This document shows positions 46,235 through 64,000 of a stretch of DNA of 64,000 nt, piece by piece. The stretch lies in assembly GCA_021805275.1 (NCBI GenBank), contig JAJZFQ010000043.1, forward strand, positions 124,001 to 188,000. Direction: 5' to 3'. The position numbers and the translations under genes were made by a program. The notes under the pieces were generated by a model. It was not told the origin of the DNA. It worked only from the letters and a program-made list of their open reading frames with translations, and ran no database searches. Each line of letters begins with the position of its first letter. The stretch's first letter is position 1. Source of the stretch: Pseudomonadota bacterium (GTDB taxonomy: Bacteria; Pseudomonadota; Gammaproteobacteria; Steroidobacterales; Steroidobacteraceae).

Positions 46235-46237
46235 AGG

Positions 46238-46609
46238 CTACGAGCGGAACACCAGGACCACACCCACGACGATTACCAGGATGCCCAGCACGCGCTCGAG
46301 ATTGGGCACCTCGTTGAACAGCCACCAGGCGAGCCCGACCATGAGCACGTAGTTGAGCGAGAGCATCGGATAGGCCTGGCTCACCGGCGCGCGCGAGAGG
46401 CCGACCAGCCAGACGATCACCGAGAGTCCGTAGCAGGTCAATGCGACCCACAGCCACGGCACGGTGAGCAGCTCGAGCAGACGCTTCGGGACGTCCACCC
46501 CGGTGCCGAACAGCGGACCGGTGGCATCCGTCGCGGCCTTCAGCCCCAGCTGCGCCACCAAGTTCAGCAGCACCCCACCGCAGAGAAACGCGAATACCGA
46601 CCATTTCAT
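46238..46609 (-). CDS. SMR/EamA-type small membrane protein, ArnE/ArnF-like flippase subunit
   Basis: 123 residues with four membrane helices (about 4-22, 45-65, 72-92, 100-120). VPWLWVALTCYGLSVIVWLVGLSRAPVSQAYPMLSLNYVLM near 50-90 and a C-terminal RVLGILVIVVGVVLVF match the ArnE/ArnF half-transporter pattern. ATG 46609 forms ATGA with the arnT stop; the longer open frame upstream is the antiframe of arnT. In E. coli ArnE and ArnF are two genes; here only one is present, so it may act as a homodimer to flip undecaprenyl-phosphate-L-Ara4N. Confidence 0.9.
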   Translation of the reverse strand: MKWSVFAFLCGGVLLNLVAQLGLKAATDATGPLFGTGVDVPKRLLELLTVPWLWVALTCYGLSVIVWLVGLSRAPVSQAYPMLSLNYVLMVGLAWWLFNEVPNLERVLGILVIVVGVVLVFRS

Positions 46610-48267: not shown

Positions 48268-48299
48268 GGTCGTACCCCGTTGAGCCCCCGGCGCGCCGG

Positions 48300-49358: not shown

Positions 49359-49465
49359 GGAAGCCCTTCGTGCCCGGTCCGCATCCGGCGCGTAAAAAGA
49401 GGAATTTTAGCAGCTTCGCATCCCGACCGGCTCGTCATTGCCGCACCGGCGCGCCCCGGGGAACC

Positions 49466-49493
49466 GGGGGGCGTCCCGGCCGGGGCGCCCCCC
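49466..49493 (-). terminator. GC hairpin after the outer-membrane barrel gene
   Basis: GGGGGGCG and CGCCCCCC are exact inverted repeats around a 12-base loop that itself contains CCCGGCCGGG. It lies nine bases after the barrel-protein stop. No T-run follows, so intrinsic termination would be weak. Confidence 0.35.
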
Positions 49494-49501
49494 GCAGCGG
49501 C

Positions 49502-50182
49502 TCAGAAGCGCAGTCCCACGGTGATCGGGATGAACTCGATCGGCTGGCTCGTTTCCAGGCGCTGGTAGCGCGCCTCGACGAAGAAGGTCTGTCCGTTGCG
49601 CAGCAGGAAATCCAAGCCGACGCCGGCGTTCCAGGAAAAGCGCGTCGTGTTGCCGCTCGCCACCACCACATCCCCGGGCACCAGCCCGAAGCTGCAGTAG
49701 CCGAACCAGGGGTCGCACAAATACGTGCCGAACGCCACGGTCTGCGTCAGGGCGACGTGCAGATGACCCACTCCGACGCCCGCGAGCGCGAAACCGCTCA
49801 CCGTGGGCGTCAAATGCACCTTGTACTGCCCGTCGACGTTCAGTCCGTAGAGCTCGCCGTAGCCGTAATCGATCTGCGTCTGGTCGATCTGCTCATTGAT
49901 CGCAATGAGATTGCGGGTCGCGCTGAAATGGCTGTACTCGAGGTCCGCGCGCAGCCCGAACGGCTCATCCGCCCAGGGCCGCCAGGTTAAGCCGCCGCCA
50001 AAGGTATAACCGCCCTGAAAGTACTGCGAGGTCGAGCCCACCGTCGGGCTGTAGCCGACCTGCAGGTGCCAGTGCACGGGCTGGCGCGGTGCGAAGGTCT
50101 GATCCGCGTAGCTCTGCGCGAACGCGCGCCCCGACAGCCCAAGCAGCACCAGAGCGCCCCAGGGGTACAAATAACGCTTCAT
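49502..50182 (-). CDS. Outer-membrane beta-barrel protein (OmpW/OmpA-like small barrel)
   Basis: 226 residues. A signal peptide (YPWGALVLLGLSGRAFA) is followed by alternating amphipathic strands rich in Tyr, Gly and aromatic residues: WHLQVGYSPTVG near 38, YTFGGGLTWRPW near 60, YGLNVDGQYKVHL near 112, FALAGVGVGHLHV near 130, and a C-terminal ITVGLRF ending in Phe, the signature for BAM-mediated insertion. One Cys pair lies near 153-160. Eight strands are likely. No ligand can be inferred. It lies between arn and murJ, all on the minus strand. Confidence 0.85.
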   Translation of the reverse strand: MKRYLYPWGALVLLGLSGRAFAQSYADQTFAPRQPVHWHLQVGYSPTVGSTSQYFQGGYTFGGGLTWRPWADEPFGLRADLEYSHFSATRNLIAINEQIDQTQIDYGYGELYGLNVDGQYKVHLTPTVSGFALAGVGVGHLHVALTQTVAFGTYLCDPWFGYCSFGLVPGDVVVASGNTTRFSWNAGVGLDFLLRNGQTFFVEARYQRLETSQPIEFIPITVGLRF

Positions 50183-50239
50183 GTCACCTTCTCCTTCGGC
50201 GCCGCCGCAGGCGCCCTGTCGTGCTGTGGCCCGCGGCCA

Positions 50240-51859
50240 CTATGCCGCGCGCAGCTTGCGCCTGAGAACCTGAGCGATGTCACGCATCTCCCCGATACCG
50301 AGCAGCAGCGCACACCCGAAGAACGCGCCAGCCCCCGTCACGATGACCAGCGAGAGCGCGCCGAGCTTTGGCCAGAAGCGCTGCTGCGCCCAGCCGCCCA
50401 TCAGCCAGTGCTGCCCGCCCCAGCACACCGCCGCGAGCACCGCGCAGGCAAGCGTCAGGCGCACCAGCATCGCACCGAGCGCGCGCGACTCGAGCCGCCC
50501 CAGATGGCGCCGCATCAGCGCGTAGAGGATGAGGAAATTGCTGGTCGCGACGCAGGCGGTGGAAAACGCAAGCCCACGGTGCCCCCAGCGCAGGTGCACC
50601 GTGAAGATCCAGTTCAGCAGCAGATTCAGGCCGACCGCGACGAAGGTCACGAGCATGGGAGTCTTGCGCCGGTCGATGGCGTAAAAGGCGTTGACCAGAA
50701 TCTTCAGCGCCGCATAGCCACACAGGCCGAGTGCGTAGAAGCGCAATCCCGCGGCGGTCTCGGCCACATCGTAGGCGGTGAAACGGCCATGTTGAAAGAG
50801 CACCGAGACGATCGGGTTGGCCAGCAGAATCAGGCCGATGCTCGAGGGAATGGTCAGCAGCAGCGCCAGACGCATGCCGCGGGCGAGCTCGCGGCGGAAG
50901 GAGAGCAGGTCCCCTGCGGCCACCAGGCGCGCCAGCAGCGGCAGGCTCACCGTGCCGAGCGTGACGCCGAAGATCCCGAGCGGCAGGTAGATCAGGCGAA
51001 AGGCGATCTGCAGCCAGATCACCCGGCCGTTGCCCAGGTCGGAGGCGAACGCGCCATTGACCAGCACGTTGATCTGGGTCGAGCTGGCCGCGATCACCGA
51101 GGGCCCCATCAGCTGCAGAATGGTCCTGACGCCCTTGTCGCGCCAGTGGAAATCGGGCCGGAACCGGTGGCCGAGCCGGCGCAGCGCCGGCAGCTGCACA
51201 CCGAGCTGCAGCGCCCCGCCGACCAGCGTGCCGATAGCCAGTCCGATCACCGCGCGCGGACCGAAGTGCGGATCGATCCACCAGCCCACCCCCGCCCCGG
51301 CGATGATCGAGCCGAGGTTAAAGAAGCTCGAGGCCATGGCCGGCATGCCGAACACATTGCGCGCATTGAGCATCCCCATGACCAGCGCGGCGAGCGACAC
51401 CATCACGATGAAGGGAAACATGATGCGCGTCAGTTCGACCGTGAGAACGGCCTTGCCGCCGTGGAATCCCCAGCCCACCACATGCACGATCCACGGCGCG
51501 CACAGGATACCGAGGATGACGAGCACACTCAGCACGACCGTCGCGAGCGTCACCACCTTGTTGGCGAGCGCCCATGCGGCCTCCTCCCCTTCGCGCACGA
51601 TGGTTTTGCTGAAGGTGGTGACGAACGCCACTGACAGCGCTCCCTCGGCGAACAGGTCGCGCAGCAGGTTCGGGATGCGAAACGCGATGGCGAATGCGTC
51701 CATCACCGCGCCGCCGCCGAACAGCGCGAGGAACACCTGGTCGCGGATCAGGCCGAGCACGCGGCTGCACAGCACGGCGACCGCCACGACGCTCGCGGCC
51801 CGCGTGTTGAGCTTCTCCCCCTGGGGACTCGTCGTCGCGGTGCGTTCCGTGGAACTCAT
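50240..51859 (-). CDS. murJ: MurJ lipid II flippase
   Basis: 539 residues with 14 membrane helices. VVAVAVLCSRVLGLIRDQVFLALFGGG near 24-50 and AMDAFAIAFRIPNLLRDLFAEGALSVAFV-type segment near 52-82 hold the conserved RxLG and RNLFAEGA-like arginines; MLNARNVFGMPAMASSFFNLG near 155 and LPLGIFGVTLGTVSLPLLAR near 285 match the family. It flips lipid II to the periplasm for peptidoglycan synthesis. The frame is open another 246 bases upstream, but ATG 51859 fits the family N-terminus. Probably essential. Confidence 0.97.
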   Translation of the reverse strand: MSSTERTATTSPQGEKLNTRAASVVAVAVLCSRVLGLIRDQVFLALFGGGAVMDAFAIAFRIPNLLRDLFAEGALSVAFVTTFSKTIVREGEEAAWALANKVVTLATVVLSVLVILGILCAPWIVHVVGWGFHGGKAVLTVELTRIMFPFIVMVSLAALVMGMLNARNVFGMPAMASSFFNLGSIIAGAGVGWWIDPHFGPRAVIGLAIGTLVGGALQLGVQLPALRRLGHRFRPDFHWRDKGVRTILQLMGPSVIAASSTQINVLVNGAFASDLGNGRVIWLQIAFRLIYLPLGIFGVTLGTVSLPLLARLVAAGDLLSFRRELARGMRLALLLTIPSSIGLILLANPIVSVLFQHGRFTAYDVAETAAGLRFYALGLCGYAALKILVNAFYAIDRRKTPMLVTFVAVGLNLLLNWIFTVHLRWGHRGLAFSTACVATSNFLILYALMRRHLGRLESRALGAMLVRLTLACAVLAAVCWGGQHWLMGGWAQQRFWPKLGALSLVIVTGAGAFFGCALLLGIGEMRDIAQVLRRKLRAA

Positions 51860-52061
51860 CGGGACGCTCAGCGAGCCACGGCCGCGCGTGACGGGGCCGC
51901 CACCGACTCGAGCCGATACCGCCCGCCCCCCAGGAGTTGCACTGCCACCGCGCCGCTCACTTGCACTGTCTGATCCGCTTGTCGCACGCGCCGCTGCGCG
52001 GCGCCGAGCGGACAAGCATAGCGAGCGACGCGCCGACGTGCGAGATGATCCCGGGGCGCTC

Positions 52062-52292
52062 TCAGAGCGGCCGCTCGAGGATCTCGACCCAGATGCCGCG
52101 CTCACACCTCAAGCGCACGCTGCCGCTCACCACCTCGGCGCCGTCGGCGAAGCGCTGCTCATTGAAGTACCAGCAATCAACCTCATCGCCGAGCTGCTCG
52201 CGCAGCGGCTCGTACGAGCGCTCTGGATCGCGCTGCCAGGGAGAGTTGCGTCGCTCCGGATCGACCGCGCCGACCTGCTGCAGCGCGCCCAC
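52062..52292 (-). CDS. Small uncharacterised protein
   Basis: 76 residues from a GTG at 52292, preceded by AGGA ten bases upstream. The sequence is compact and acidic, with YEPLREQLGDEVDCWYFNEQ near 27-46 and VRLRCERGIWVEILE near 60. It looks like real coding sequence (balanced composition, no low-complexity). No family recognised. It sits between acuI and murJ, same strand, with 53- and 202-base gaps. Confidence 0.6.
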   Translation of the reverse strand: MGALQQVGAVDPERRNSPWQRDPERSYEPLREQLGDEVDCWYFNEQRFADGAEVVSGSVRLRCERGIWVEILERPL

Positions 52293-52345
52293 TTCGACTT
52301 ATCCTCATCATCGCTCACCCCCGCGTGCGCCCCGGCGCACCTCGG

Positions 52346-53347
52346 TTACAAATCCCCACCGAGCCGCACGACATAGCGGCCGCGTGCCTGCCCCGCGATC
52401 AGCTCGCGGGCCGCCTGCGGCACCTGCTCCAGGTCGATCACCGCACGCACGATGCGCTGCTCGATGCGCTGCGGCCGCCAGGGTCCGGCCAGCTGCTGCC
52501 ACAGGGCCACGCGCCAGGGTCGTGGCACCTGCACGGAGTGGATCCCGAGCAGACTCACCCCGCGCAGGATCAGCGGCATGACCGTGGTGTTCAGCGCGGC
52601 GGACTGAGCAAGACCGATGCAGGCGATGTTGCCCCACGGCCTGACCGTGCGCGTCAGATAGGTCAGCACCTCACCGCCCAGATTGTCGACCGCCCCGCCC
52701 CAGAGGGCCTTCTCCAGCGGCTTGGCGCCCACGTCCAGCTGGCCACGATCGATCACCTCCTCGGCGCCGAGCTCGCGCAGCTGCAGGGCCGCCTCCGGCT
52801 TCCCGGTGAGCGCGGCGGTGTGAAATCCGGCCTGATGCAGCAGGATCAGGGCGATGCTGCCCACCCCGCCGGAGGCTCCCGTCACCACAATCGGTCCGAG
52901 TGCGGGCGCCTGGTGATTCTCCAGCATGCGCCGCAGCGCCAGTGCAGCGGTGAATCCGGCCGTGCCGAGCGCCATGGCCTCGAACAGGCTCAACCCCGGC
53001 GGCAGCGGCACCAGCGCATCGGCCGGCACCCGAGCGTACTCGGCGAGTCCGCCGTCGAGCCATTCCCCGAGCCCCGCCCCCGTGGCGAGCACCCGCTCGC
53101 CCGGCCGGAAGGCCGGATCCGCGCTGGCCTCGACCACGCCGGACAGGTCGATGCCGGCGACCCGGGGGAAGCTGCGCATGATTGCCCCGCGACCGGTGAT
53201 CGCGAGGGCATCCTTGTAATTGAGCCCGGAGTACGCGACCCGCACCTGCACCTCGCCAGGCCCGGGCGGTTCGAGCGCGATCGATTCCAGCGATGCGCCC
53301 GCGCCGAGCGGGCCCTGGTGAATACGTAAGGCTTTGAACGTCGTCAT
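52346..53347 (-). CDS. acuI: Acrylyl-CoA reductase-type quinone oxidoreductase (AcuI/YhdH)
   Basis: 333 residues. The MDR fold has VRVAYSGLNYKDALAITGRG near 35-54, FPRVAGIDLSGVVEASADPAFRPGERVLATG near 60-90, WLDGGLAEYARVPADALVPLPPGLS near 97, and the nucleotide loop VVTGASGGVGSIALILLHQAGF near 150. These are YhdH/AcuI features. AcuI reduces acryloyl-CoA to propionyl-CoA with NADPH. ATG 53347 has AGGCGGA upstream; the longer open frame is antisense to the thiolase region. Divergent from the PaaJ-like thiolase gene. Confidence 0.93.
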   Translation of the reverse strand: MTTFKALRIHQGPLGAGASLESIALEPPGPGEVQVRVAYSGLNYKDALAITGRGAIMRSFPRVAGIDLSGVVEASADPAFRPGERVLATGAGLGEWLDGGLAEYARVPADALVPLPPGLSLFEAMALGTAGFTAALALRRMLENHQAPALGPIVVTGASGGVGSIALILLHQAGFHTAALTGKPEAALQLRELGAEEVIDRGQLDVGAKPLEKALWGGAVDNLGGEVLTYLTRTVRPWGNIACIGLAQSAALNTTVMPLILRGVSLLGIHSVQVPRPWRVALWQQLAGPWRPQRIEQRIVRAVIDLEQVPQAARELIAGQARGRYVVRLGGDL

Positions 53348-53496
53348 CGGTCCGCCTGGCCACCGCGATGCGACGCATTGTATCGGGAGCGGATGCGCCC
53401 CGATGCCCCGGGGAAACCACAGGGTGCGCCGTGGCAAAAGCCCGCCGGATGCAGTACTGTTGCGCTCCTTGTTTTTCAACCACTTGGATGACAGTG

Positions 53497-54702
53497 ATGA
53501 CCGACGCACTGATCTGCGAGGCGGTCCGCACGCCGTTTGGCCGCTACGGTGGGTCGCTGGCGGCGGTGCGCACCGATGATCTGGCGGCCCTCCCGCTGCG
53601 CGCCCTGATGGAGCGCCACCCGGCACTGGACTGGTCGCAGCTCGATGACGTGGTGCTCGGTTGCGCCAATCAGGCCGGCGAGGACAACCGCAACGTCGCG
53701 CGCATGGCAGTGCTGCTGTCAGGCCTGCCCGAGGCCGTGCCCGCCGCGACGCTCAACCGTCTGTGCGGCTCGAGCCTCGATGCCGTGGCGAGCGCCGCGC
53801 GCGCCATCGCCTCGGGCCAGACGCACCTGATGATCGCCGGCGGCGTGGAGAGCATGACGCGGGCCCCATTCGTGCTGGGCAAGGCCGAGCACGCCTTCGA
53901 CCGCAGCGGCAAGCTCGAGGACACCACCCTCGGCTGGCGCTTCGTCAACCCGCTTATCCAGAACCGCTGCGGCGTCGACTCGATGGCCCAGACCGCCGAG
54001 AACCTCGTCGCGGAGCGCGGCATCTCGCGGGCCGACCAGGACGCATTCGCCCTGCGCAGCCAGCAGCGCTACGCCCGCGCGCAGGCGCGCGGGTTCTTCG
54101 CGAAGGAAATCGTGCCGGTGACCGTGACGCGCTCAAAACAGCCCCCGCTGCAAGTGCAGGCCGACGAGCATCCGCGTCCGGACACCTCTCTCGAGAGCCT
54201 CGGCAAGCTGAAGGGCGTCGTACGACCCGATGGCTCGGTGACTGCCGGCAACTCCTCGGGCATCAACGACGGCGCAGCCGCAGTGTTGCTCGCGAGTGAG
54301 TCCGCCGCCGTGCGCTACGGTCTGACTCCGCGCGCGCGGGTGATCGGCAGCGCAGTGGCCGGCGTGCCTCCGCGCATCATGGGCCTCGGACCGGCGCCCG
54401 CCACGCGCAAGCTCCTGGAGCGCACCGGCATCTCCCTCGGCGCGATTGACGTCATCGAACTCAACGAGGCGTTTGCTGCACAGTCCCTCGCTGTCCTGCG
54501 CGAACTCGGGCTGCCGGACGACGCCGAGCACGTCAACCCCAATGGCGGTGCCATCGCCCTCGGCCACCCGCTCGGCGCGAGCGGAGCGCGCCTGGTGGCC
54601 ACGGCGGTGAGCCAGCTCGAGGCGACCGGCGGCAAGCGTGCGCTGTGCACGATGTGCATCGGCGTGGGTCAGGGCATCGCTCTGCTGCTCGAGAGACTCT
54701 GA
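53497..54702 (+). CDS. paaJ: 3-oxoadipyl-CoA/3-oxo-5,6-dehydrosuberyl-CoA thiolase (PaaJ/PcaF type)
   Basis: 401 residues, exactly the usual length of PaaJ/PcaF. AVRTPFGRYGGSLAAVRTDDLAALPLRAL near 9-37, NRLCGSSLDAVASAARAI near 87 (nucleophilic Cys), GGVESMTRAPFV near 115, GWRFVNPL near 142, NEAFAAQSLAVL near 343, GGAIALGHPLGASGARL near 357 and CIGVGQGIALLLERL at the end (second Cys). It ends phenylacetate or beta-ketoadipate breakdown, giving acetyl-CoA and succinyl-CoA or the dehydroadipyl-CoA. ATG 53488 is an alternative start. About 38 kb from the paa operon. Confidence 0.94.
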   Translation: MTDALICEAVRTPFGRYGGSLAAVRTDDLAALPLRALMERHPALDWSQLDDVVLGCANQAGEDNRNVARMAVLLSGLPEAVPAATLNRLCGSSLDAVASAARAIASGQTHLMIAGGVESMTRAPFVLGKAEHAFDRSGKLEDTTLGWRFVNPLIQNRCGVDSMAQTAENLVAERGISRADQDAFALRSQQRYARAQARGFFAKEIVPVTVTRSKQPPLQVQADEHPRPDTSLESLGKLKGVVRPDGSVTAGNSSGINDGAAAVLLASESAAVRYGLTPRARVIGSAVAGVPPRIMGLGPAPATRKLLERTGISLGAIDVIELNEAFAAQSLAVLRELGLPDDAEHVNPNGGAIALGHPLGASGARLVATAVSQLEATGGKRALCTMCIGVGQGIALLLERL

Positions 54703-54728
54703 GGCGGCGGCGACGCTCTGGCGCGGAC

Positions 54729-55424
54729 TCAGCTCACCTGCACGCGCAGCGTCTGGAGGCCGCTGCAGGTGCCTTCCATCCGCTCGCCACGCTCAACCGG
54801 ACCGACGCCCGCCGGCGTGCCGGTGAAGATCAGGTCCCCGGGGGTGAGCCTCCAGGCGGCTGACAGATGTGCCAGGATCTCCGGCACGCTCCAGATCATC
54901 TGGTCGATCCGGCTGCGCTGCCGCTCGACGCCCTCGACCCGCAGGGCAATCTCGGCACCCTCGATCGCGCCGGCCTGATCGCGCGGGGTGATTGGGCCGA
55001 GCGGTGCGGCGTGATCGAAGCCCTTGCCGATGCACCAGGGCGCCGAGCGCTTCTTCATCTCGGCCTGCAGATCGCGCCGGGTCATGTCGAGCCCGATGGC
55101 GTAACCGAAGACATGCTCGAGCGAGCGGGCCGGCTCGATGTCGCGCCCCCCCACCCCGATCGCGACCACCAGCTCTACCTCATGGTGCAGGTTGGCCGTC
55201 AGGCTCGGATACGGCATGAGGCCGGTCTCGCCGGCCTCGACCGGCAGCAGCGCGTCGGCCGGCTTCATGAAGAACACCGGCGGCTCGCGGCCCGTGCGGC
55301 CCATCTCCTGGGCATGAGCGAGATAGTTCGAGCCCACGCAGTAGATGCGGTGCACCGCAAAACGCGCGGCGGTCCCGGTCACCGGCGCGCTCACGCTCGG
55401 CGGTGGCGCAAAGACATAGTTCAT
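54729..55424 (-). CDS. Fumarylacetoacetate hydrolase (FAH) family protein
   Basis: 231 residues, the short form of the family. YCVGSNYLAHAQEMGR near 28-43, FFMKPADALLP near 51, LHHEVELVVAIG near 79-90 (the H..E.E metal motif), YAIGLDMTRRDLQAEMKKRSAPW near 107, GKGFDHAAPLGPI near 132 and PGDLIFTGTPAGVGPV near 195 are typical. Members cleave or hydrate acylpyruvates (e.g. fumarylpyruvate). No gentisate or homogentisate genes are near, so the substrate is open. ATG 55424 chosen; the frame extends upstream without support. Confidence 0.92.
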   Translation of the reverse strand: MNYVFAPPPSVSAPVTGTAARFAVHRIYCVGSNYLAHAQEMGRTGREPPVFFMKPADALLPVEAGETGLMPYPSLTANLHHEVELVVAIGVGGRDIEPARSLEHVFGYAIGLDMTRRDLQAEMKKRSAPWCIGKGFDHAAPLGPITPRDQAGAIEGAEIALRVEGVERQRSRIDQMIWSVPEILAHLSAAWRLTPGDLIFTGTPAGVGPVERGERMEGTCSGLQTLRVQVS

Positions 55425-55521
55425 GGATGATGGCCGCCTCGGGGAGGTACTGCGCAGTCTAGCCACCCCCACCCCGCCCGTCCAACCGCGCCACCGCCAG
55501 GAATTTCCTGCGCAGGGCCGT

Positions 55522-55547
55522 GTAACCGTTCCGCCCGGCCGGACGAA
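55522..55547 (+). promoter_or_regulatory. ECF SigF-type promoter (GTAACC-N16-CGAA)
   Basis: GTAACC (55522-55527), a 16-base spacer, and CGAA (55544-55547) match exactly the consensus I recall for Caulobacter SigF. It reads toward the ECF sigma gene at 55708, leaving a leader of about 150 bases. Self-activation of the sigma factor is the simple reading. Confidence 0.7.
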
Positions 55548-55707
55548 TATACCGGCAGAGGTCGGCATGTCAGCGTGCATTCCCACAAGTCCAAACCGTT
55601 CGTTTTGCCTCCGCCCGGCGTACGCGCCGAGTGCGGTACACTACAGCGCAGTCCCGCAGTCGCACCGCCCGGCGGGCGCACGCCCGCCAGGCGCGTCGGC
55701 CGGCTGA

Positions 55708-56250
55708 ATGGAGACTCGTTTGGCGGACGATCACTGGCGCGAATTGATGTTGGCGGCCCAGCGGGGCGACGCCGCGGCATACCGGCGCCTGCTCGTCGAG
55801 GCCGGCGCGTGGCTGCAACGATACTATTCGCGCCGACTGCCGGCCTCGATGGTGGACGATGCCGCCCAGGAAGTCCTGTTGTCGCTGCACACCAAGCGCC
55901 ACACCTACGACCCCTCCAAACCCTTCGGTCCGTGGCTCGCGGCGATCGCCCGCTACAAGTGGATCGACCGGCTGCGCGCGATGAAGGACGCGCCCACCGA
56001 GGAACTGGACGAGGACCTTGCGGTACGCGATCACGGCGAGGCGGTGCAGAGCGCACGCGTTCTGGAAACCCTGCTCGCGACGCTCAAGCCCGCCCAGGCC
56101 AACGCCATTCGACTGGTCAAGTTGGAGGGTCTGAGCATCAAAGAGGCCGCCGAGCGGCTGGGACAGACCATGGCGCTTGTCAAGGTGAACATCCACAGGG
56201 GGTTGCGTCAATTGAGCGAGCGGGCGCAGGAGGACAGCCATGAAGCTTGA
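55708..56250 (+). CDS. ECF RNA polymerase sigma factor (SigF-like, NrsF-regulated)
   Basis: 180 residues. Region 2 has a VDDAAQEVLLSLHTKRHTYDPSKPFGPWLAAIARYKWIDRLRAM stretch (parts, residues 50-92); region 4 has LKPAQANAIRLVKLEGLSIKEAAERLGQTMALVKVNIHRGLRQL (parts, 128-170). The KRHTYDPSKPFGPWLAAIARYKWIDRLR wording is that of the SigF-type ECF group that pairs with NrsF anti-sigma factors. Its end overlaps the nrsF-like start by 11 bases. Start ATG 55708, or TTG 55720 which has GGAG upstream. Expected to respond to envelope oxidant or metal stress. Confidence 0.94.
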   Translation: METRLADDHWRELMLAAQRGDAAAYRRLLVEAGAWLQRYYSRRLPASMVDDAAQEVLLSLHTKRHTYDPSKPFGPWLAAIARYKWIDRLRAMKDAPTEELDEDLAVRDHGEAVQSARVLETLLATLKPAQANAIRLVKLEGLSIKEAAERLGQTMALVKVNIHRGLRQLSERAQEDSHEA

Positions 56251-56881
56251 CGCGCTGATCGAGCAGCTCACCGAGGATCTATCGCCCGTGCGCCCGCGGC
56301 GGGTCTGGATCGATGCCCTGATCATTGCGCTCATCGCGGCGGGCGAACTGGCGCTGCTGTTCGCGGTGGGCATGGCCCATCTGGACATGCACCGCGTGAT
56401 GTCGCAGCCCACCGTGGGCTGGCGGATCGTCAGCCTCGGACTGATCTCGCTCGTGAGCGGCTGGCTCGCCATCCGCTCCTTCGAGCCGACCTTCTCGGCA
56501 CGGGGCTCGATGCGCTGGTTGGCGCTGATCGTTGTGCTGTGTGTCGCCTACGGGGTGCTCACGAGCGGTCTGCCCGTCGGAGTCGCGAGCATCGTGCAGC
56601 GCCTCGCCTGGCACAGCGGCGTGCAGTGCGCCTCGAAGATCGTGCTGCTGTCGATTCCGCCACTGCTCGCGCTGGCGGTACTCGGACATCGCGGCGCGCC
56701 GACCGACCTGCGTCGCACGCCGCTGCTGATTGGCTTGGCGGCCGCGGCATGGGGGGCATTCGTGTTCGTCTTCGCCTGCCCGTTCAACGATCCACTGTAC
56801 ATCCTCACCTGGTACGGACTGGCCTGCGGGATCGTCACGCTCGTGGCCCGGCTCGTGCTGCCGCGCTTCGCGCACTGGTGA
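56240..56881 (+). CDS. NrsF/DUF1109-family membrane anti-sigma factor
   Basis: 213 residues with six membrane helices (about 25-47, 60-80, 92-112, 128-150, 160-180, 187-207). The short cytoplasmic N-terminus (LDALIEQLTEDLSPVRP) would hold the sigma factor. Cys130 (HSGVQCASKIVLLS) and Cys180 (FVFACPFNDPLY) correspond closely to the two conserved cysteines reported for Caulobacter NrsF (near 131 and 181), needed for release of SigF. This makes a redox or metal-sensing role likely. Confidence 0.93.
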   Translation: MKLDALIEQLTEDLSPVRPRRVWIDALIIALIAAGELALLFAVGMAHLDMHRVMSQPTVGWRIVSLGLISLVSGWLAIRSFEPTFSARGSMRWLALIVVLCVAYGVLTSGLPVGVASIVQRLAWHSGVQCASKIVLLSIPPLLALAVLGHRGAPTDLRRTPLLIGLAAAAWGAFVFVFACPFNDPLYILTWYGLACGIVTLVARLVLPRFAHW

Positions 56882-56951
56882 GGCCTGCGGTCGGTCAGGC
56901 CGGAACTGTCTACGGGACGGAAATCTCTGAAAGCTAACAGGAGTTGCAACC

Positions 56952-57935
56952 ATGGCCTCCCGCCTCCCCCGCATTGCCCCCTCGCAGATCACTCCGCCGG
57001 AGGTCTTCTTCAACCGCCGCCGCTTCCTCGCCGGCGCCCTCCTCGCCGGTACCGGCGCGGCGCTCGGGCGCGCCGGCGCGGCCGTCGTGCCCGCCGCGGC
57101 GGGTGCCCCGCTCGCCTACTCGCTCGATACCGCCGACTCGGTCGGCGCCCTGGTGCACGCCCCGGGGCAGGACGAGACGCCGAACAGCTGGGAACAGATC
57201 ACCCACTACAACAACTACTACGAGTTCGGCACCGGCAAGAGCGACCCGGCCGAGTACGCCGCCGCCCTGCAGACGCGGCCGTGGAGCCTCACGGTGTCCG
57301 GGGAGGCCGAGGTGACCGGCCAGTTCCCGCTCGAGAAGTTCCTCAGTCCCTATGCGCTCGAGGAGCGCATCTACCGCTTCCGCTGCGTGGAGGCCTGGTC
57401 GATGGTCATCCCGTGGGTGGGCTTTCCCCTGGCGCAGCTGCTGAAGCAGTTCAAGCCCACCTCGCGCGCCAAGTATGTCGCCTTCGAGACGCTCTACCGC
57501 CCGAGTCAGATGCCCGGCCAGCGCGTGCCGATCCTTCAGTGGCCGTACCGCGAGGGACTGCGCATTGATGAGGCTATGAACCGTCTCGCCTTCATGGTGG
57601 TAGGCCTGTACGGCCGCGTGCTACCGAACCAGAACGGCGCACCGCTGCGCCTGATCGTGCCGTGGAAATACGGCTTCAAGAGCATCAAGTCGATCGTGCG
57701 CATCGTGTTCACGGAGCGTCAACCGCAGACCACCTGGAGCCTGGCGGCCCCCAACGAGTACGGCTTCTATGCGAACGTCAACCCCAATGTACCGCACCCA
57801 CGTTGGAGTCAGGCCACCGAGCGGCGCATCGGCGCGCCGTTGTTTCACGAGCGGCAGGCGACGCTGATGTTCAACGGCTATGCCGATGAGGTCGCCTACC
57901 TCTACAAGGGCATGAACCTGCATGAGTACTTCTAG
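56952..57935 (+). CDS. msrP: MsrP: periplasmic methionine sulfoxide reductase, molybdopterin subunit
   Basis: 327 residues. A Tat signal (FFNRRRFLAGALLAGTG, residues 19-35) precedes the sulfite-oxidase fold: ITHYNNYYEFG near 82, PWSLTVSGEAE near 110, RFRCVEAWSMVIPWVGFPLAQLL near 142-164 with the Mo-binding Cys145, YGFKSIKSIVRI near 240, and NVNPNVPHPRWSQATERRIG near 275. It repairs oxidised methionine in periplasmic proteins using electrons from MsrQ. AGGAG precedes ATG 56952. Overlaps msrQ by 14 bases. Confidence 0.97.
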   Translation: MASRLPRIAPSQITPPEVFFNRRRFLAGALLAGTGAALGRAGAAVVPAAAGAPLAYSLDTADSVGALVHAPGQDETPNSWEQITHYNNYYEFGTGKSDPAEYAAALQTRPWSLTVSGEAEVTGQFPLEKFLSPYALEERIYRFRCVEAWSMVIPWVGFPLAQLLKQFKPTSRAKYVAFETLYRPSQMPGQRVPILQWPYREGLRIDEAMNRLAFMVVGLYGRVLPNQNGAPLRLIVPWKYGFKSIKSIVRIVFTERQPQTTWSLAAPNEYGFYANVNPNVPHPRWSQATERRIGAPLFHERQATLMFNGYADEVAYLYKGMNLHEYF

Positions 57936-58932
57936 AGCGGCCGGACGAGGCGCCGCGACCGTCCCCACGTCGGCTGCGGCGCGACCCTTGCTCGGATTGA
58001 GTGTCGAGCGCCGCTATCGCTACCTGTACAAGCCGGCGGTGTTTCTAGCCTGTCTCGCTCCGCTCGCCTGGATGGCCGCAAGCCTGTTCGGCTGGCTCGG
58101 CCTCTCAGCGCCGGTCGATGCGGTGAAGTTCCTGGAATTGCGCTGCGGTAAGACCGCCCTCAATCTGCTCCTGCTGACCCTGATGGTCACCCCGGTGCGC
58201 CAGATCGCCCGCCTGCCGCATCTGCTGCGGCTGCGGCGCATGCTCGGGCTGTTCGCGTTCTTCTACGCCGCGCTGCACTTCACGGTCTACCTGGTGCTCG
58301 ATGTGGATCTCGACTGGCATCAACTCGCCGCTGACATTCTCAAGCGGCCGTACATCACGGTCGGCTTCAGCGCGCTGCTGTTGCTGCTGCCGCTCGCGAT
58401 CACCTCGACGAACCGCATGATGCGCCGGCTGGGTCGGCGTTGGAGCCGGCTGCACCGGCTGATCTACCTTATCGCCGCCCTCGGCGTGTGGCACTTCTAT
58501 TGGCAAGAAAAGATCGACGTGCGCGAGCCGCTGGTATACGCCGGGGTTCTGCTGCTGCTGCTCGGTTATCGCTGGGTCCGCAGTCCCCGCCCCTGGGCGG
58601 TGCTGGCACCGCTGCGCTCGCCGTCCCGACCGCTAGGGTCGCCCGCCGAGCAGGCGCGCGGGCAACAGCAGCAGCGCGCGCAGAAACTCGAATACGCCGT
58701 CGAACACGATACCGAGCAGGCGCAGCGGCAGCAGCAGCAGCCAGAGGATCGGCCAGGCGAGCAGCGCCAGCACCGCGATCGGCCAGCACAGCACGAACAG
58801 GATCAGCCACAGCAGCACCTTGAACATCCGCTTACGCTACCCGCGCCTGTCCCAAGGCACAAGCGACGTTGCGCGCACGCCGCACTGGTCCCGGCGGGGT
58901 CGGTCGAGGGCTCCTGTTCACCGCCGAGATAG
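57922..58932 (+). CDS. msrQ: MsrQ heme-binding membrane subunit with an abnormal C-terminal read-through
   Basis: 336 codons, while MsrQ is usually about 200-220 residues. Residues about 25-230 are the normal YedZ part: six helices, FLELRCGKTALNLLLLTLMVTPVRQ near 68-92, LGLFAFFYAALHFTVYLVLD near 108-127 (heme His) and RRWSRLHRLIYLIAALGVWHFYW near 172-194 (further His). From about residue 238 to 302 the frame runs antisense to the small membrane-protein gene at 58633-58827, producing a Gln-rich tail with no membrane helix, and it continues to 58932. A one-base shift near 58620 would end the protein at a TAG at 58634, so a mutation or sequence error may explain it. Confidence 0.9.
   Translation: MSTSRAAGRGAATVPTSAAARPLLGLSVERRYRYLYKPAVFLACLAPLAWMAASLFGWLGLSAPVDAVKFLELRCGKTALNLLLLTLMVTPVRQIARLPHLLRLRRMLGLFAFFYAALHFTVYLVLDVDLDWHQLAADILKRPYITVGFSALLLLLPLAITSTNRMMRRLGRRWSRLHRLIYLIAALGVWHFYWQEKIDVREPLVYAGVLLLLLGYRWVRSPRPWAVLAPLRSPSRPLGSPAEQARGQQQQRAQKLEYAVEHDTEQAQRQQQQPEDRPGEQRQHRDRPAQHEQDQPQQHLEHPLTLPAPVPRHKRRCAHAALVPAGSVEGSCSPPR
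58633..58827 (-). CDS. Small hydrophobic membrane protein, antisense to the end of msrQ
   Basis: 64 residues from ATG 58827. Almost the whole protein is hydrophobic: two membrane segments, VLLWLILFVLCWPIAVLALLA (residues 4-24) and ILWLLLLPLRLLGIVFDGVF (27-46), then a Leu-rich tail with LLLLPARLLGG. Similar short Leu/Trp proteins are seen in other proteobacteria, but I cannot name the family. It is convergent with and wholly inside the extended msrQ frame. The coherent hydrophobic pattern on this strand, against a Gln/Arg low-complexity one on the other, supports this strand as coding. Confidence 0.65.
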   Translation of the reverse strand: MFKVLLWLILFVLCWPIAVLALLAWPILWLLLLPLRLLGIVFDGVFEFLRALLLLPARLLGGRP

Positions 58933-59143
58933 CGACCAGGCTCGACGGACCGGCCTCCCGTGCGCGGTTGCGGCGCGACTCGCTTCGTCGCGGCCGACAG
59001 GGCATTCGCCGCAAAACGACGGCCCGTCAGGGGCGGACTTTCCCCCCTTGGCGTGCGGATGCGGCATGATGGCATCATATAGAGCGCTCGGCCCCGCGAA
59101 TCAGTCCACCAAAATCGAGCCCGAGCGCTGGAGGAGCACCCGA

Positions 59144-60769
59144 ATGAAGCATGTTGTTGCACTCGCGGCACTTTTCACGGTGGCCGCGTGCGAGGCCTGC
59201 GGCGCCCCCGCGTTAGCCGCGGCTCCCAAGGCCCTCCCCCCGGCTCCGGCCGCGGCGAGCGCGGCCTCCGCGCTGTTCACACCGAACGCGGTCACGAGCT
59301 ACGGATCTGTCACGATCGACGGGCACAAGATCAACTACAAGGCGGTTGCCGGCACCCTCATCGTCCACCCGAAGGGCTGGAACGACGCCACGACGCCCGC
59401 GACGGGCAAGGACGCGCTCGGCGAGCCGGACGGCCCGCCCGTGGCCTCCATGTTCTACGTCGCGTACTTCAAGCGCGGCGTGCCGGCCCACGACCGGCCG
59501 ATCACCTTCCTCTATAACGGCGGTCCGGGCTCCTCGACCGTGTGGCTGCACATGGGCGGCATGGGCCCGGTACGCGTTGTGACCAACAACAACACGCACA
59601 CCCCGGCGGCCCCGTACAGCATCATCAAGAACAAGTACAGCCTGCTCGATGCGACGGACCTGGTGTTCATCGACGCCCCGGGCACCGGCTACAGCCGCAT
59701 CGCGGGGAAGAACGCAGCCAAGGCGTTCTACGGAGTCGATCCCGACGGGCACGCCTTCGCCTCCTTCATCACGCAGTTCCTGGCGCATTATCAGCGCTGG
59801 AACTCGCCGAAGTACCTGCTCGGGGAGAGCTACGGCACCCCGCGCTCGGCGGTGCTGATCAAGGACCTCGAAATCGGTCGCTCGGTCGATTTCAACGGCG
59901 TGATTCTGCTCTCGCAGATCCTGAACTTCGCTCTGAACGCAGATGCCCCCGGCACCAACCCCGGGATCGAGCTGCCGTACGAGCTGGCGCTGCCGAGCAT
60001 GGCGGCAACGGCCTGGTATCACCACGCGCTGCCGTCCAGTCCGGCGCACCTGCTGCCGTTCCTGAAGACGGTCGAGACCTTCGCCATGGGCCCGTACGCC
60101 GACGCACTCGCCCAGGGCGCTGCTCTACCCTCGGCCGATCGCCAGAGCATCGCCGAGCAGATGCACCAGTACATCGGTCTGCCGGTGTCATACCTGCTCA
60201 AGGCGAACCTGCAGGTGAGCGGACCGGAGTTTGAGCACGAACTGCTCTACAACGAGGACATGACCACCGGCCGTCTCGACTCGCGCTTCGAGGGGCCTTC
60301 CATGGACCCGCTGAGCCGCGAGGCGTACTACGACCCGCAGTCCGCCGCCATCAGCTCGGCGTACGTGACCGCTTTCAATGCCTACGCCTCGAAGGACCTG
60401 CATTACCAGACGGACCTGCGCTACCTGCCGGAGATCTTCACGCACTGGGACTTCCGGCACCGCCCGCCAGGCGCACCCATCCCGGTTCCCATTGCCACCA
60501 ACGTGATGCCGGACCTCGCCGTGGCGATGAAGTACAACCCGGACCTGAAGGTCATGCTGAACGGCGGGTACTTCGATCTCGCCACACCGTTCTGTGAGGG
60601 TCTGTACGAGATGCACCATCTGCAGATTCCGAACAGCCTGCAGTCGAACATTACGTACGCGTATTACAAGTCGGGTCACATGATCTACGTGAACATCCCC
60701 GCTCTGAAGCAGCTGCACGCCAACATTGCGGCCTTCATTCGCAAGACCGACAACGTTTCAGGAGGCTGA
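59144..60769 (+). CDS. Secreted S10-family serine carboxypeptidase-like protein (first of a tandem pair)
   Basis: 541 residues. The N-terminus has a signal peptide; the VAAC at 13-16 also fits a lipobox, so it may be a lipoprotein. FLYNGGPGSSTVWLHMGGMGP near 122-142 builds the oxyanion hole; LGESYGTPRSA has the nucleophile Ser229; VMLNGGYFDLATPF near 475 gives the Asp and YYKSGHMIYV near 515 the His. Expected activity is C-terminal exopeptidase in the periplasm or outside. GGAGGAGC lies six bases before ATG 59144. Only two bases separate it from the paralogue downstream. Confidence 0.93.
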   Translation: MKHVVALAALFTVAACEACGAPALAAAPKALPPAPAAASAASALFTPNAVTSYGSVTIDGHKINYKAVAGTLIVHPKGWNDATTPATGKDALGEPDGPPVASMFYVAYFKRGVPAHDRPITFLYNGGPGSSTVWLHMGGMGPVRVVTNNNTHTPAAPYSIIKNKYSLLDATDLVFIDAPGTGYSRIAGKNAAKAFYGVDPDGHAFASFITQFLAHYQRWNSPKYLLGESYGTPRSAVLIKDLEIGRSVDFNGVILLSQILNFALNADAPGTNPGIELPYELALPSMAATAWYHHALPSSPAHLLPFLKTVETFAMGPYADALAQGAALPSADRQSIAEQMHQYIGLPVSYLLKANLQVSGPEFEHELLYNEDMTTGRLDSRFEGPSMDPLSREAYYDPQSAAISSAYVTAFNAYASKDLHYQTDLRYLPEIFTHWDFRHRPPGAPIPVPIATNVMPDLAVAMKYNPDLKVMLNGGYFDLATPFCEGLYEMHHLQIPNSLQSNITYAYYKSGHMIYVNIPALKQLHANIAAFIRKTDNVSGG

Positions 60770-60771
60770 CC

Positions 60772-62421
60772 ATGAGCATGCGCGATACGATGCGAATCCG
60801 ACCCTTCCGGCGCGGCGCTCAGGCCCTGGCGGCCGCCTCGGTCCTCACGCTGTCCGCGGCCGGCGCCCCGGCGCTCGCCGCCGGTCATGCGGCTGAACCC
60901 GCCGCCCACCACGGCAACCCGTACTTCCGCACGGTCACCAGCACCAGCTCCGGCACGGTCACGGTCGAAGGCAAGACCATCCACTACCATGCCGTCGCCG
61001 GCATGATGGTGGTGCACGCGGCAGGCTGGAACGATGCCACGAACGCCTACGGCCCGGGGCAGCCCCCGCCGGGCGCTGCGAAGACGGTGCCGCCCGAAGC
61101 CTCGATGTTCTACGTCGCCTACTTCAAGGACGGCGCCAACGCGAACAACCGACCGATCACCTTCCTCTACAACGGCGGTCCGGGCTCCTCCTCGGTGTGG
61201 CTGCACATGGGCGCGTTCGGGCCGGTGCGGGTCGAGACCAGCGATCACACGCACACCCCGCCGGCGCCCTACCAGCTGGTGGACAACCAGTACAGCCTGC
61301 TCGATGCCAGTGATCTGGTGTTCGTCGATGCGCCGGGAACCGGCTTCGGCCGCGTTCGTGGCACGGATGCGGCGGCGCACTTCTACGGGGCCGATCAGGA
61401 CGTGCACGCGTTCTCCGAGTTCATCATGCAGTTCCTGTCGAAGTACGGCCGCTGGAACTCCCCGAAGTACCTCTTCGGCGAGAGTTACGGCACGCCGCGC
61501 TCGGCAAACCTGATCAACGTCCTGACGACGCACGACAACATCGACTTCAACGGCGTGATCCTGCTCTCGCAGATCCTCAACTACGACAACTCAACCGGGC
61601 TTGCCCAGTTCAACCCAGGTATCGATCTGCCGTACGAGCTGGCGCTGCCGAGCATGACCGCCACCGCGTGGTATCACCACATGCTCCCCGACAGTTCGCA
61701 GCCGCTGAAGCCGCTGCTCGCCACGGTCGAGCAGTTCGCGCTGACCGACTACGCCCAGGCACTGCGTGCCGGCTCGCAGCTCGGCTCCGCGCAGTTCGAT
61801 GCCGTCGCCGCCAAGCTGCACGAGTACACCGGTCTGCCGGTCTCGTACATCGAGAAGGCGAACCTGCGCGTCGATGGCGGGCAGTTCGAGCAAGAGCTGC
61901 TGTCCGGAAAGGACGAGACCACCGGCCGCCTCGACACGCGCTTCGCAGGTCCCTCGCTCAATCCGCTGAGCGAGCGTGCCGGCTACGACCCACAGTCCGC
62001 CGCCATCAGTTCGGCGTACGTCGCGGCGTTCAACACCTACACACGCAATGACCTGCACTACGGCGAGGGGATGAAGTACCTGCCGGAGATTCCGCTCTGG
62101 CGCACCTGGAACTTCGCGCATCGCCCGCCCGGCGGCGGCTTCGCCTTCCCGCAGGCGCTCAACGTGATGCCCGACCTCGCCAATGCGATGAAACAGGACC
62201 CGAAACTCAAGGTCATGCTGAACGGCGGGTACTTCGATCTCGCAACGCCCTTCTTCGAAGGCATGTACGAGATGTCGCACCTGCCGATGCCGCGCAAGCT
62301 GCAGGCCAACATCCAGTACCACTACTACAAGTCCGGTCACATGGTGTACGTGCATGTGCCGGCGCTGAAGAAGCTGCACGACAACGTCGTGGCGTTCATC
62401 GCCTCGACCGAGCACCAATAG
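60772..62421 (+). CDS. Secreted S10-family serine carboxypeptidase-like protein (second of a tandem pair)
   Basis: 549 residues with a signal peptide ending near residue 37 (LTLSAAGAPALA). The same blocks as its neighbour recur: FLYNGGPGSSSVWLHMGAFGP, LFGESYGTPRSANL (nucleophile Ser), VMLNGGYFDLATPF (Asp) and YYKSGHMVYV (His). It differs by an insertion before the first block (PGQPPPGAAKT) and lacks the lipobox-like Cys. AGGAGG precedes ATG 60772. Followed by a strong terminator. The pair arose by duplication; differences near the substrate pocket suggest complementary specificity (inference). Confidence 0.94.
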   Translation: MSMRDTMRIRPFRRGAQALAAASVLTLSAAGAPALAAGHAAEPAAHHGNPYFRTVTSTSSGTVTVEGKTIHYHAVAGMMVVHAAGWNDATNAYGPGQPPPGAAKTVPPEASMFYVAYFKDGANANNRPITFLYNGGPGSSSVWLHMGAFGPVRVETSDHTHTPPAPYQLVDNQYSLLDASDLVFVDAPGTGFGRVRGTDAAAHFYGADQDVHAFSEFIMQFLSKYGRWNSPKYLFGESYGTPRSANLINVLTTHDNIDFNGVILLSQILNYDNSTGLAQFNPGIDLPYELALPSMTATAWYHHMLPDSSQPLKPLLATVEQFALTDYAQALRAGSQLGSAQFDAVAAKLHEYTGLPVSYIEKANLRVDGGQFEQELLSGKDETTGRLDTRFAGPSLNPLSERAGYDPQSAAISSAYVAAFNTYTRNDLHYGEGMKYLPEIPLWRTWNFAHRPPGGGFAFPQALNVMPDLANAMKQDPKLKVMLNGGYFDLATPFFEGMYEMSHLPMPRKLQANIQYHYYKSGHMVYVHVPALKKLHDNVVAFIASTEHQ

Positions 62422-62438
62422 CGACCTGACGCTCGTTC

Positions 62439-62480
62439 GCGCCCGGCGGGACACGCTTCCCGCCGGGCGCATTCTTTCTC
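62439..62480 (+). terminator. Rho-independent terminator of the carboxypeptidase operon
   Basis: GCGCCCGGCGGGA and TCCCGCCGGGCGC form a perfect 13-base stem with a six-base loop, followed directly by ATTCTTTCTC. It begins 18 bases after the second carboxypeptidase stop. The best intrinsic terminator I found in the window. Confidence 0.85.
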
Positions 62481-62778
62481 GGAACTCGGGCGCTTGGCAT
62501 TCGGCCGGCCGCCGCCGTGAGCGTCCTGGCATAGTCGGTCCGACCTCGCCCCGGCCTGATGCGCCGCTCGAGACACGATGTCCCTCGCCGGGCCGCAGAT
62601 CCGCCTCGCAACTGCCGCCGATGCGCCTCGAGCAGCCCGTCCGCTAGCGGCCACGGCTGCCCGCGCGTGCGTCAGTCGTCGTAAACTGCGCTCGATCCGA
62701 CGAAATGAGCGCGTGCCGTGGCGCTCGCGCCGCCCGCTGCGGGCGCTGCGCAGCATCAACACAGGATGGAGCTTCACG
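62481..62778. other. Intergenic stretch ahead of the glutathione transferase gene
   Basis: About 300 bases. The glutathione-transferase frame is open through part of it (from 62578), but that translation is Arg/Ala-rich and unlike the family, so I treat it as untranslated. No clear promoter pair or repeat was recognised. Confidence 0.45.
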
Positions 62779-63651
62779 ATGAGCGACTCCGCATATGTAC
62801 CGCCGCAGGTCTGGAGCTGGAACAAGCCGAGCGGCGGCCAATTCGCCAGTATCAACCGCCCGGTCGCCGGAGCGACCCATGAGAAGACGCTGCCGGTCGG
62901 CCGCCATCCGCTGCAGCTGTACTCCCTCGGCACCCCGAACGGCGTCAAGGTGACGATCCTGCTCGAGGAACTGCTCGCCCTCGGCCACACAGGTGCCGAG
63001 TACGACGCCTGGCTGATCCGCATCGCCGACGGGGAGCAGTTCGGCAGCGGCTTCGTCGCGGTGAATCCCAATTCCAAGATCCCGGCGCTGCTTGATCGGA
63101 GCGGGTCGCAGCCGATCCGCGTGTTCGAATCGGGCGCGATCCTCCTCTACCTGGCCGAGAAGTTCGGCGCGTTCCTGCCGACGGATGCCGCCGCGCGCGC
63201 CGAGTGCCTCTCGTGGTTGTTCTGGCAGGTCGGCAGCGCACCTTATCTCGGCGGTGGATTCGGCCACTTTTATGCCTATGCGCCTGCGAAGAGCGAATAC
63301 GCCATCGACCGCTTCGCCATGGAGGTCAAGCGCCAGCTCGATGTGCTCGACCGTCGGCTCGCCGAGAGCGCGTACATCGCCGGAGCTGAATACACCATCG
63401 CGGACATGGCGGTATTCCCGTGGTACGGGGGTCTTGCCAAGGGGTGGCTTTACGGGGCCGGAGAGTTCCTCGGCGTGCACGAATATGCCAACGTGCAGCG
63501 CTGGGCGGACCGCCTGCTCGAGCGGCCGGCCGTGCGGCGCGGTCGCATGGTCAACCGGTTGAGCGGCGAGCCGGCGACCCAGCTGCACGAGCGGCATGAT
63601 GCGCGGGACTTCGAGACCCGGACGCAGGACAAGCTCGGTGCGGCGACGTAG
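62779..63651 (+). CDS. yghU: YghU-type glutathione S-transferase
   Basis: 290 residues, close to E. coli YghU (288). YVPPQVWSWNKPSGGQFASINRPVAGATHEKTLPVG (parts, residues 5-42) is the unusual N-terminal extension of this group; the thioredoxin-like domain has LYSLGTPNGVKVTILLEELL near 48-67, VNPNSKIPALLD near 95 and VFESGAILLYLAEKFGAFLP near 112. The helical domain has AGAEYTIADMAVFPWYGGL near 208. Such enzymes bind two glutathiones and have disulfide reductase and peroxidase activity. GGATGGAG precedes ATG 62779. Confidence 0.96.
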   Translation: MSDSAYVPPQVWSWNKPSGGQFASINRPVAGATHEKTLPVGRHPLQLYSLGTPNGVKVTILLEELLALGHTGAEYDAWLIRIADGEQFGSGFVAVNPNSKIPALLDRSGSQPIRVFESGAILLYLAEKFGAFLPTDAAARAECLSWLFWQVGSAPYLGGGFGHFYAYAPAKSEYAIDRFAMEVKRQLDVLDRRLAESAYIAGAEYTIADMAVFPWYGGLAKGWLYGAGEFLGVHEYANVQRWADRLLERPAVRRGRMVNRLSGEPATQLHERHDARDFETRTQDKLGAAT

Positions 63652-63681
63652 CCGCGCAACCTCCGTGCTGCCGGCGGCACG

Positions 63682-64000
63682 CTAGCCGGCGCTCTGCGGC
63701 GCCTCGAGCGGTGCCGCGGAGCGGCTCGCGCGGTACCAGGCGATGCCGTCGACCTGCTCGCACTCGATGAGGCCGCGACCACGCAGACAGTTCAGGTGTG
63801 CGATGCACTCGCCCGTTGCAAGCTGCAGCGCGTGGCTGACGTTGCGGCGGAACATCGCCGGAAAGACGTCAATCGCCCGCTTCGGCTCGCGCAGCGCCGC
63901 GAGCACGCGCTTCAGCGCCCCCTCGTGCCAAGCATTGAGCTCGCCGAGGCGCGCATGCAGACCGCGGAACGGCTCCTTGTGGGCGGGCAGCACCAACACT
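63682..64000 (-). CDS. C-terminal part of an MBL-fold metallo-hydrolase (gene runs past the right edge)
   Basis: At least 105 codons, open to the window edge. VLPAHKEPFRGLHARLGEL is the last metal-site strand and helix of a beta-lactamase-fold hydrolase; a winged-helix-like C-terminal domain follows (ALKRVLAALREPKRAIDVFPAMFRR near 30, GECIAHLNCLRGRGLIECEQVDGIAWYR near 62-90), as in the BLACT_WH group. The catalytic HxHxDH is outside the window. It is convergent with yghU, 30 bases apart. Confidence 0.82.
   Translation of the reverse strand, partial: VLVLPAHKEPFRGLHARLGELNAWHEGALKRVLAALREPKRAIDVFPAMFRRNVSHALQLATGECIAHLNCLRGRGLIECEQVDGIAWYRASRSAAPLEAPQSAG

Follow-up and report, generated by a model that had tools for sequence, protein, structure and literature searches.

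A stretch of 64,000 nucleotides from contig JAJZFQ010000043.1 (positions 124,001 to 188,000; assembly GCA_021805275.1) of a Pseudomonadota bacterium of the family Steroidobacteraceae was analysed and is referred to here as the window. It carries, on the plus strand and in this order, genes for an extracytoplasmic function (ECF) sigma factor of the SigF/ECF16 kind, an NrsF anti-sigma factor, the periplasmic methionine-sulfoxide reductase MsrP and the haem-binding membrane subunit MsrQ (Table 1). This order had been proposed in an original prediction made from the sequence, and it is borne out by profile matches for all four genes. The sigma gene overlaps the nrsF frame and msrP overlaps the msrQ frame. 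The analysis shows the genes, a promoter motif in front of them, the conservation and linkage of both, and the sites that precede bufferin operons in relatives. In our reading the unit is very probably an ECF16 (SigF/NrsF) stress operon with its own promoter that reads through nrsF into msrPQ.

Table 1. Features of the sigF-nrsF-msrPQ unit in the window.
Feature	Position	Strand	Evidence
ECF16 (SigF-type) promoter, TGTAACC-N16-CGAATA	55521-55549	+	sequence, published consensus, 14/14 leaders
TACACT, -10-like element	55637-55642	+	TACA[AC]T in 12/14 leaders
ECF sigma factor, SigF/ECF16 kind, 180 amino acids	55708-56250	+	Pfam/NCBIfam profiles
NrsF anti-sigma factor, 213 amino acids, with Cys130 and Cys180	56240-56881	+	PF06532
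nrsF-msrP gap, 70 bp, no conserved promoter element	56882-56951	+	gap alignment, promoter calling
MsrP, periplasmic methionine-sulfoxide reductase	56952-57935	+	NF003767, 1xdq
MsrQ, haem-binding membrane subunit	57922-58932	+	NF003831

Each of the four genes has support from Pfam. The sigma factor scored 39.5 bits with Sigma70_r2 (cut-off 24), 44.5 bits with r4_2 (cut-off 25.7) and 74.2 bits with the broad sigma70-ECF model of NCBIfam (cut-off 42.9), and is 64% identical to the sigma factor of Caulobacter sp. S45 (locus L033). NrsF reached 110.3 bits with PF06532 (cut-off 26.8). For MsrP the score with NF003767 was 456.8 bits (cut-off 207). This protein also matches the solved protein 1xdq (E 3.6e-100), with which Cys145 of its RCVEAWSM motif is aligned, and it has a Tat-type RRRF at residue 22. 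Cys145 is presumably the molybdenum ligand. MsrQ scored 181.3 bits with NF003831 (cut-off 130) over residues 33-219, and about 100 residues at its C-terminus form an extension that is overlapped by an antisense open reading frame (ORF).

Upstream of the sigma gene GTAACC is found at 55522 and CGAA at 55544, with a spacer of 16. As predicted, this site equals the Caulobacter SigF pattern GTAACC-N16-CGAA letter for letter (PMC3511200), and the published ECF16 consensus is tGTAACc-N16-CGAA (PMC3420878). A transcript would be expected to start near 55555. GTAAC-N16..18-CGAA has a single match in the window. Because 23 of 100 shuffled versions of the window also gave at least one match (mean 0.25), the bare presence of the motif in 64 kb is weak by itself and its weight rests on position and conservation. 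TG[TA]AACC-N16-CG[ATG]AT precedes the sigma gene in all 14 leaders (the window and 13 relatives), a descriptive and not a blind count, as this relaxed pattern was composed after the leaders had been inspected. The strict CGAA form is present in seven leaders, and a strict scan misses seven of the 13 relatives: TGAAACC and CGTAT occur in L005, L007, L008 and L009, and CGGAT in L012, L013 and L015. In the alignment of the 14 leaders 23 of 118 columns are invariant, the -35 and -10 letters included. The ECF16 -10 element is overlapped on the minus strand by a sigma-70-like promoter match, CTGACA-16-TATATT (55546-55573), which is directed towards a divergently oriented gene for an FAA hydrolase.

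The neighbourhood of sigF-nrsF, whose survey had been suggested along with the prediction, was studied in 79 genome loci obtained by means of an alignment of NrsF sequences. In 14 of them msrP directly follows nrsF, and 13 of these include the sigma gene as well and show the same four-gene order, L005 and L029 being cut by contig ends. Across the order-keeping loci the gap between nrsF and msrP measures 67-74 bp. In a sample of 299 genomes from the phylum of G001, the genome closest to the window, NrsF was over the cut-off in 50 and MsrP in 118, and the two occurred together only in G001; four other pairs on the same contig are 0.57 to 3.7 Mb apart. Among 120 genomes from the family of G001, 29 had NrsF over the cut-off, 84 had MsrP at E 1e-60 and five had both together (G001, G004, G005, G007 and G012). 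Many genomes of both samples are fragmented drafts and these counts are lower bounds. The name Steroidobacteraceae was taken from a single matched protein, 94% identical, whose source gives this family. The sigF-nrsF-msrPQ linkage is unusual and, in the samples studied, confined to one clade.

Some variation around this arrangement was seen. In L002 the full nrsF is preceded by an incomplete duplicate of its start (10001-10096), a small tandem duplication. G003 contains two sigma/nrsF pairs, L003 with msrPQ (promoter CGAAT) and L017 with bufferins (promoter CGTAT), possibly a division of promoter specificity. Many alphaproteobacterial loci encode, no more than about 5 kb from sigF-nrsF, a molybdopterin oxidoreductase that is only distantly related to MsrP (24-31% identity; for example L057 6727-7428, minus strand, PF00174).

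The genomes of 19 relatives were scanned with the strict form GTAACC-N16-CGAAT, which was fixed before the scan ran, and with the reversed pattern as a control. The strict form gave 24 matches, the reversed pattern four. Sixteen of the 24 adjoin, in our reading, sigma/NrsF genes (eight), bufferin genes (six), a DoxX gene confirmed by profile (one) or a gene for a Cys-rich peptide (one), and the remaining eight lie elsewhere. Two of the eight sigma/NrsF matches, both in G016, flank a pair and are not ahead of its sigma gene. G001 has one strict match and G002 two. That the genes are chance neighbours behind a chance motif, as the shuffled windows with at least one looser match might suggest, has next to no probability, since 13 relatives share both the gene order and the promoter, by which we consider chance refuted, and since the matches outnumber those of the reversed pattern. 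The Cys-rich repeat peptide (L134; G003, C35:122161), which has an apparent signal sequence and no Pfam match, stands behind its ECF16 site divergent from another nrsF. Similar strict matches in the related genomes G007 (C53:82764) and G008 (C197:33819) precede look-alike short ORFs.

The gap between nrsF and msrP leaves room for a separate promoter, from which msrPQ would be transcribed as a mere neighbour of sigF-nrsF. A look-alike, GGAACT...TCTCTGA, was spotted in the gap by eye. Apart from the window it occurs only in L001, where its spacing is altered, and in L002, and it was dropped as a candidate. When the 14 gaps were aligned, five of 69 gap-free columns were invariant, all at the msrP start, and neither a promoter nor a terminator was called in the gap of the window. 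Together with the four-gene order that is kept in 13 relatives this makes separate transcription of msrPQ very improbable. Where msrP lies away from nrsF (four of four genomes examined: G010, G011, G014 and G017), the approximately 1.5 kb upstream of it is without an ECF16-type site; two loose matches in L145 and L146 are antisense within msrQ and not before msrP. As the gap is without a conserved or called promoter and the unlinked msrP genes are without an ECF16 site, read-through from the sigF promoter into msrPQ is favoured, and we infer that the four genes would be co-transcribed.

The pair Cys130 and Cys180, noted in NrsF by the original prediction, is kept in 80 of 80 NrsF sequences (39 of 39 in an earlier set) and fits the published cysteine positions of ECF16 anti-sigma factors, C129-131 and C179-181 (PMC8315932, PMC3511200, PMC3420878). 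A crude hydropathy scan of NrsF gave seven peaks, two of them overlapping, compared with the six helices predicted before. Two further cysteines were seen, C101 in 19 of 21 sequences of the window's clade versus 11 of 59 others, and C196 in 75 of 80. We propose the following scheme for the signal, the release of the sigma factor, the path of the electrons and the substrates. At rest the sigma factor would be held at the inner membrane by NrsF. An oxidant in the periplasm, or a metal that reacts with thiols, would alter NrsF via Cys130 and Cys180, upon which the freed sigma factor would transcribe the operon that encodes it, reading from 55522 across nrsF into msrP and msrQ. MsrQ would then hand quinol electrons to MsrP, which is predicted to reduce methionine sulfoxide in periplasmic proteins.

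For Caulobacter, Bradyrhizobium, Azospira and Brucella it is already established that SigF/NrsF controls methionine-sulfoxide reductases. Caulobacter crescentus resembles the window in its ECF16 sigma factor, its DUF1109 anti-sigma factor with two cysteines and its GTAACC-N16-CGAA promoter (PMC3511200). Under the control of SigF there are sigF-nrsF itself, two bufferin clusters and MsrPQ, which respond to copper (PMC8224329). However, MsrPQ of Caulobacter is a separate locus in trans, whereas in the window it directly follows nrsF, and the Caulobacter regulon includes bufferin-type (DUF2282/DUF692/DUF2063/DoxX) operons (PMC3511200, PMC8224329), whereas the window has no bufferin genes. In Bradyrhizobium japonicum, EcfF and OsrA form an autoregulated operon, C129 and C179 of OsrA act in the control of EcfF, and three methionine-sulfoxide reductases belong to the regulon; unlike in the window these are termed peptide methionine-sulfoxide reductases and belong to transcription units other than that of the pair (PMC3420878). 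In Azospira suillum SigF/NrsF controls a periplasmic MsrP-type reductase and is found with MrpX and YedYZ (as cited in PMC4623255 and PMC5748585). The ECF16 pair BcrS/AbcS of Brucella melitensis activates msrPQ homologues from (T/C)GTAAC-N17-CGAA, BcrS driving bcrXQP directly from an ECF16 promoter, and the authors point out that at least three further ECF16 regulons include Msr genes (PMC8315932). There bcrXQP is a transcript of its own that includes bcrX, whereas msrPQ of the window shares one apparent operon with the sigma gene, and this operon has no bcrX.

Azospira differs from the window in having MrpX, and a MrpX- or BcrX-like gene (an ORF of at least 40 residues with six Met in 40) was searched for locally. 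None was present beside the unit in the window (45000-64000) or in 14 loci, and such a gene was rejected as a member of the unit, though the genome may have a copy elsewhere. The scan returned two Met-rich ORFs in this part of the window and seven in the 14 loci, of which only one is shorter than 200 residues (L004 2463-2840). A 2025 survey of MNIO clusters has sigma and NrsF genes in Buf1 clusters, and MsrP did not turn up when its text was searched by term (PMC12452194). Among the literature matches listed no description of a single sigF-nrsF-msrPQ operon was found, a weak negative because subscription papers were mostly outside the search. What is new is mainly the linkage, by which a known partnership is tightly packed into one apparent operon.

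A number of observations weigh against the stress operon as described. The sigma factor stays below all 24 narrower NCBIfam models listed of the 63 matched (best 145.9 bits, cut-off 171), and NrsF obtains 41.7 bits where the NCBIfam equivalog cut-off is 300. In G018 nrsF-msrP-msrQ (L019 10001-12292) is kept with an ECF16-like site, GTAACG-N16-CGAAT, just before nrsF and without a close sigma gene; the nearest sigma factor in this draft is 40% identical and stands beside another nrsF. The occurrence of TACA[AC]T in 12 of 14 leaders suggests that the operon is not dependent on SigF alone. No -35 was called with TACACT and no plus-strand promoter was called in the leader of the window; the element may give basal expression of the sigma gene. 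Basal expression through another sigma factor has been proposed for Brucella bcrS and Caulobacter sigF (PMC8315932, PMC3511200). Finally, the microarray study of Caulobacter reports that generators of reactive oxygen species did not induce the regulon (PMC3511200), for which reason an oxidant signal is not certain. Published signals differ: metals in Caulobacter (PMC3511200), H2O2 in Bradyrhizobium (PMC3420878) and reactive chlorine in Brucella (PMC8315932) and Azospira (PMC5748585).

It had also been proposed that the bufferin genes, which accompany this pair in many genomes, are replaced by MsrPQ. For the relatives this was rejected. DUF692, the bufferin MNIO, was found in 15 of the 19 genomes, and ten of the 13 with sigma-nrsF-msrPQ have it as well (not G001, G006 and G012). 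In nine of these ten a bufferin operon has its own ECF16-type site. A DUF2282-DUF692 operon with such a site is divergent from sigF in G004, G013, G015 and G019 (Pfam confirmed DUF2282 in L004 and L013, and DUF2063 in L013); in G002, G003, G007, G008 and G009 the operon lies elsewhere, with the site before the precursor gene. The tenth genome, G005, has a gene fragment. The pattern with TG before TAAC misses the sites in L091, L094, L095 and L098 and finds one in each if CG is allowed. This wider pattern was chosen after the L094 site had been seen by eye, and L094 is therefore not an independent test, the other three being closer to one; L093 and the divergent loci already fit the narrower TG pattern. 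In an NrsF tree of 24 rows (the outer ones Acetobacteraceae and Caulobacter) six bufferin-only loci nest within msrPQ-bearing ones, with ten of 20 inner branches starred and six open, and with an unsure placement of the long branches L033, L019, L020 and L006. For most relatives it is probable that this sigma factor drives a bufferin operon as well, as in Caulobacter.

For the window's species itself a "self-contained" regulon is unproven. That its SigF controls only its own operon and that the bufferins were lost is in our opinion rather unlikely, although several results point that way. G001, in which sigma factor, NrsF and MsrP are each 98% identical to those of the window, has its one strict site and no DUF692 match. 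The window likewise has one site and gave no match at E 0.01 with the ORFs of the BufABC region of G002, and G006 and G012 are also without a DUF692 match. However, the completeness of G001, a 2.5 Mb draft, is not stated, an ECF16 site precedes a bufferin operon in the next closest genome, G002 (NrsF 91%), and the strict form of the scan misses variant sites that occur in relatives.

In the bufferin precursors of loci assigned to the msrPQ-linked sigma factor, ten distinct sequences, the stretch of 28 residues ahead of the first Cys contains 2-8 Met, versus 0-3 in 18 other rows of the same listing, which holds only sequences that fit one pattern and in which L033 (+) and L152 (+) of the 18 resemble another bufferin type. 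Three Met are present in L011, two of them in a signal-like stretch, and none in L017/L093, beside the msrPQ-free second pair of G003. The richest precursor, a DUF2282 protein by Pfam (L133; G003, C35:111395), lies behind an ECF16 site and has eight. The ten are related, and their Met-rich character may be one event. This distribution suggests that MsrPQ might repair the bufferin itself. It is conceivable, albeit improbable, that SigF of this clade couples copper buffering to methionine repair, in that the Met-rich head of the bufferin would take up copper or oxidant and the co-regulated MsrPQ would restore this head, so that the bufferin would do the work of MrpX as well. If this is true for the window's species, a bufferin gene must be present elsewhere in its genome.

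Opposite the C-terminal end of msrQ the antisense ORF (58633-58827, minus strand) encodes 64 residues that are hydrophobic and have no Pfam match. Compared with L002 it has seven synonymous and two non-synonymous codon changes, versus four and 18 in the overlapping MsrQ extension; compared with L001 these numbers are three and two versus five and 11. Because of this pattern the antisense ORF, and not the MsrQ extension, may be the real gene at this position. The unit is followed on the plus strand by two serine carboxypeptidase (Peptidase_S10) paralogues that lie side by side (58820-62421).

The idea that repair enzymes are placed under a membrane thiol switch thus holds in part. In its favour, msrPQ stands behind an ECF16 pair with its own promoter in an arrangement conserved in the clade and without a conserved promoter element in the gap; the associated notion of replaced bufferins is contradicted by the relatives. 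That SigF/NrsF, MsrPQ and bufferins recur together suggests a joint handling of copper stress and methionine oxidation in the periplasm. The unit extends the control of periplasmic methionine repair by SigF/NrsF to an uncultured lineage, and its compactness, a single apparent operon that contains sensor, regulator and repair enzymes, would make the signal easy to test.

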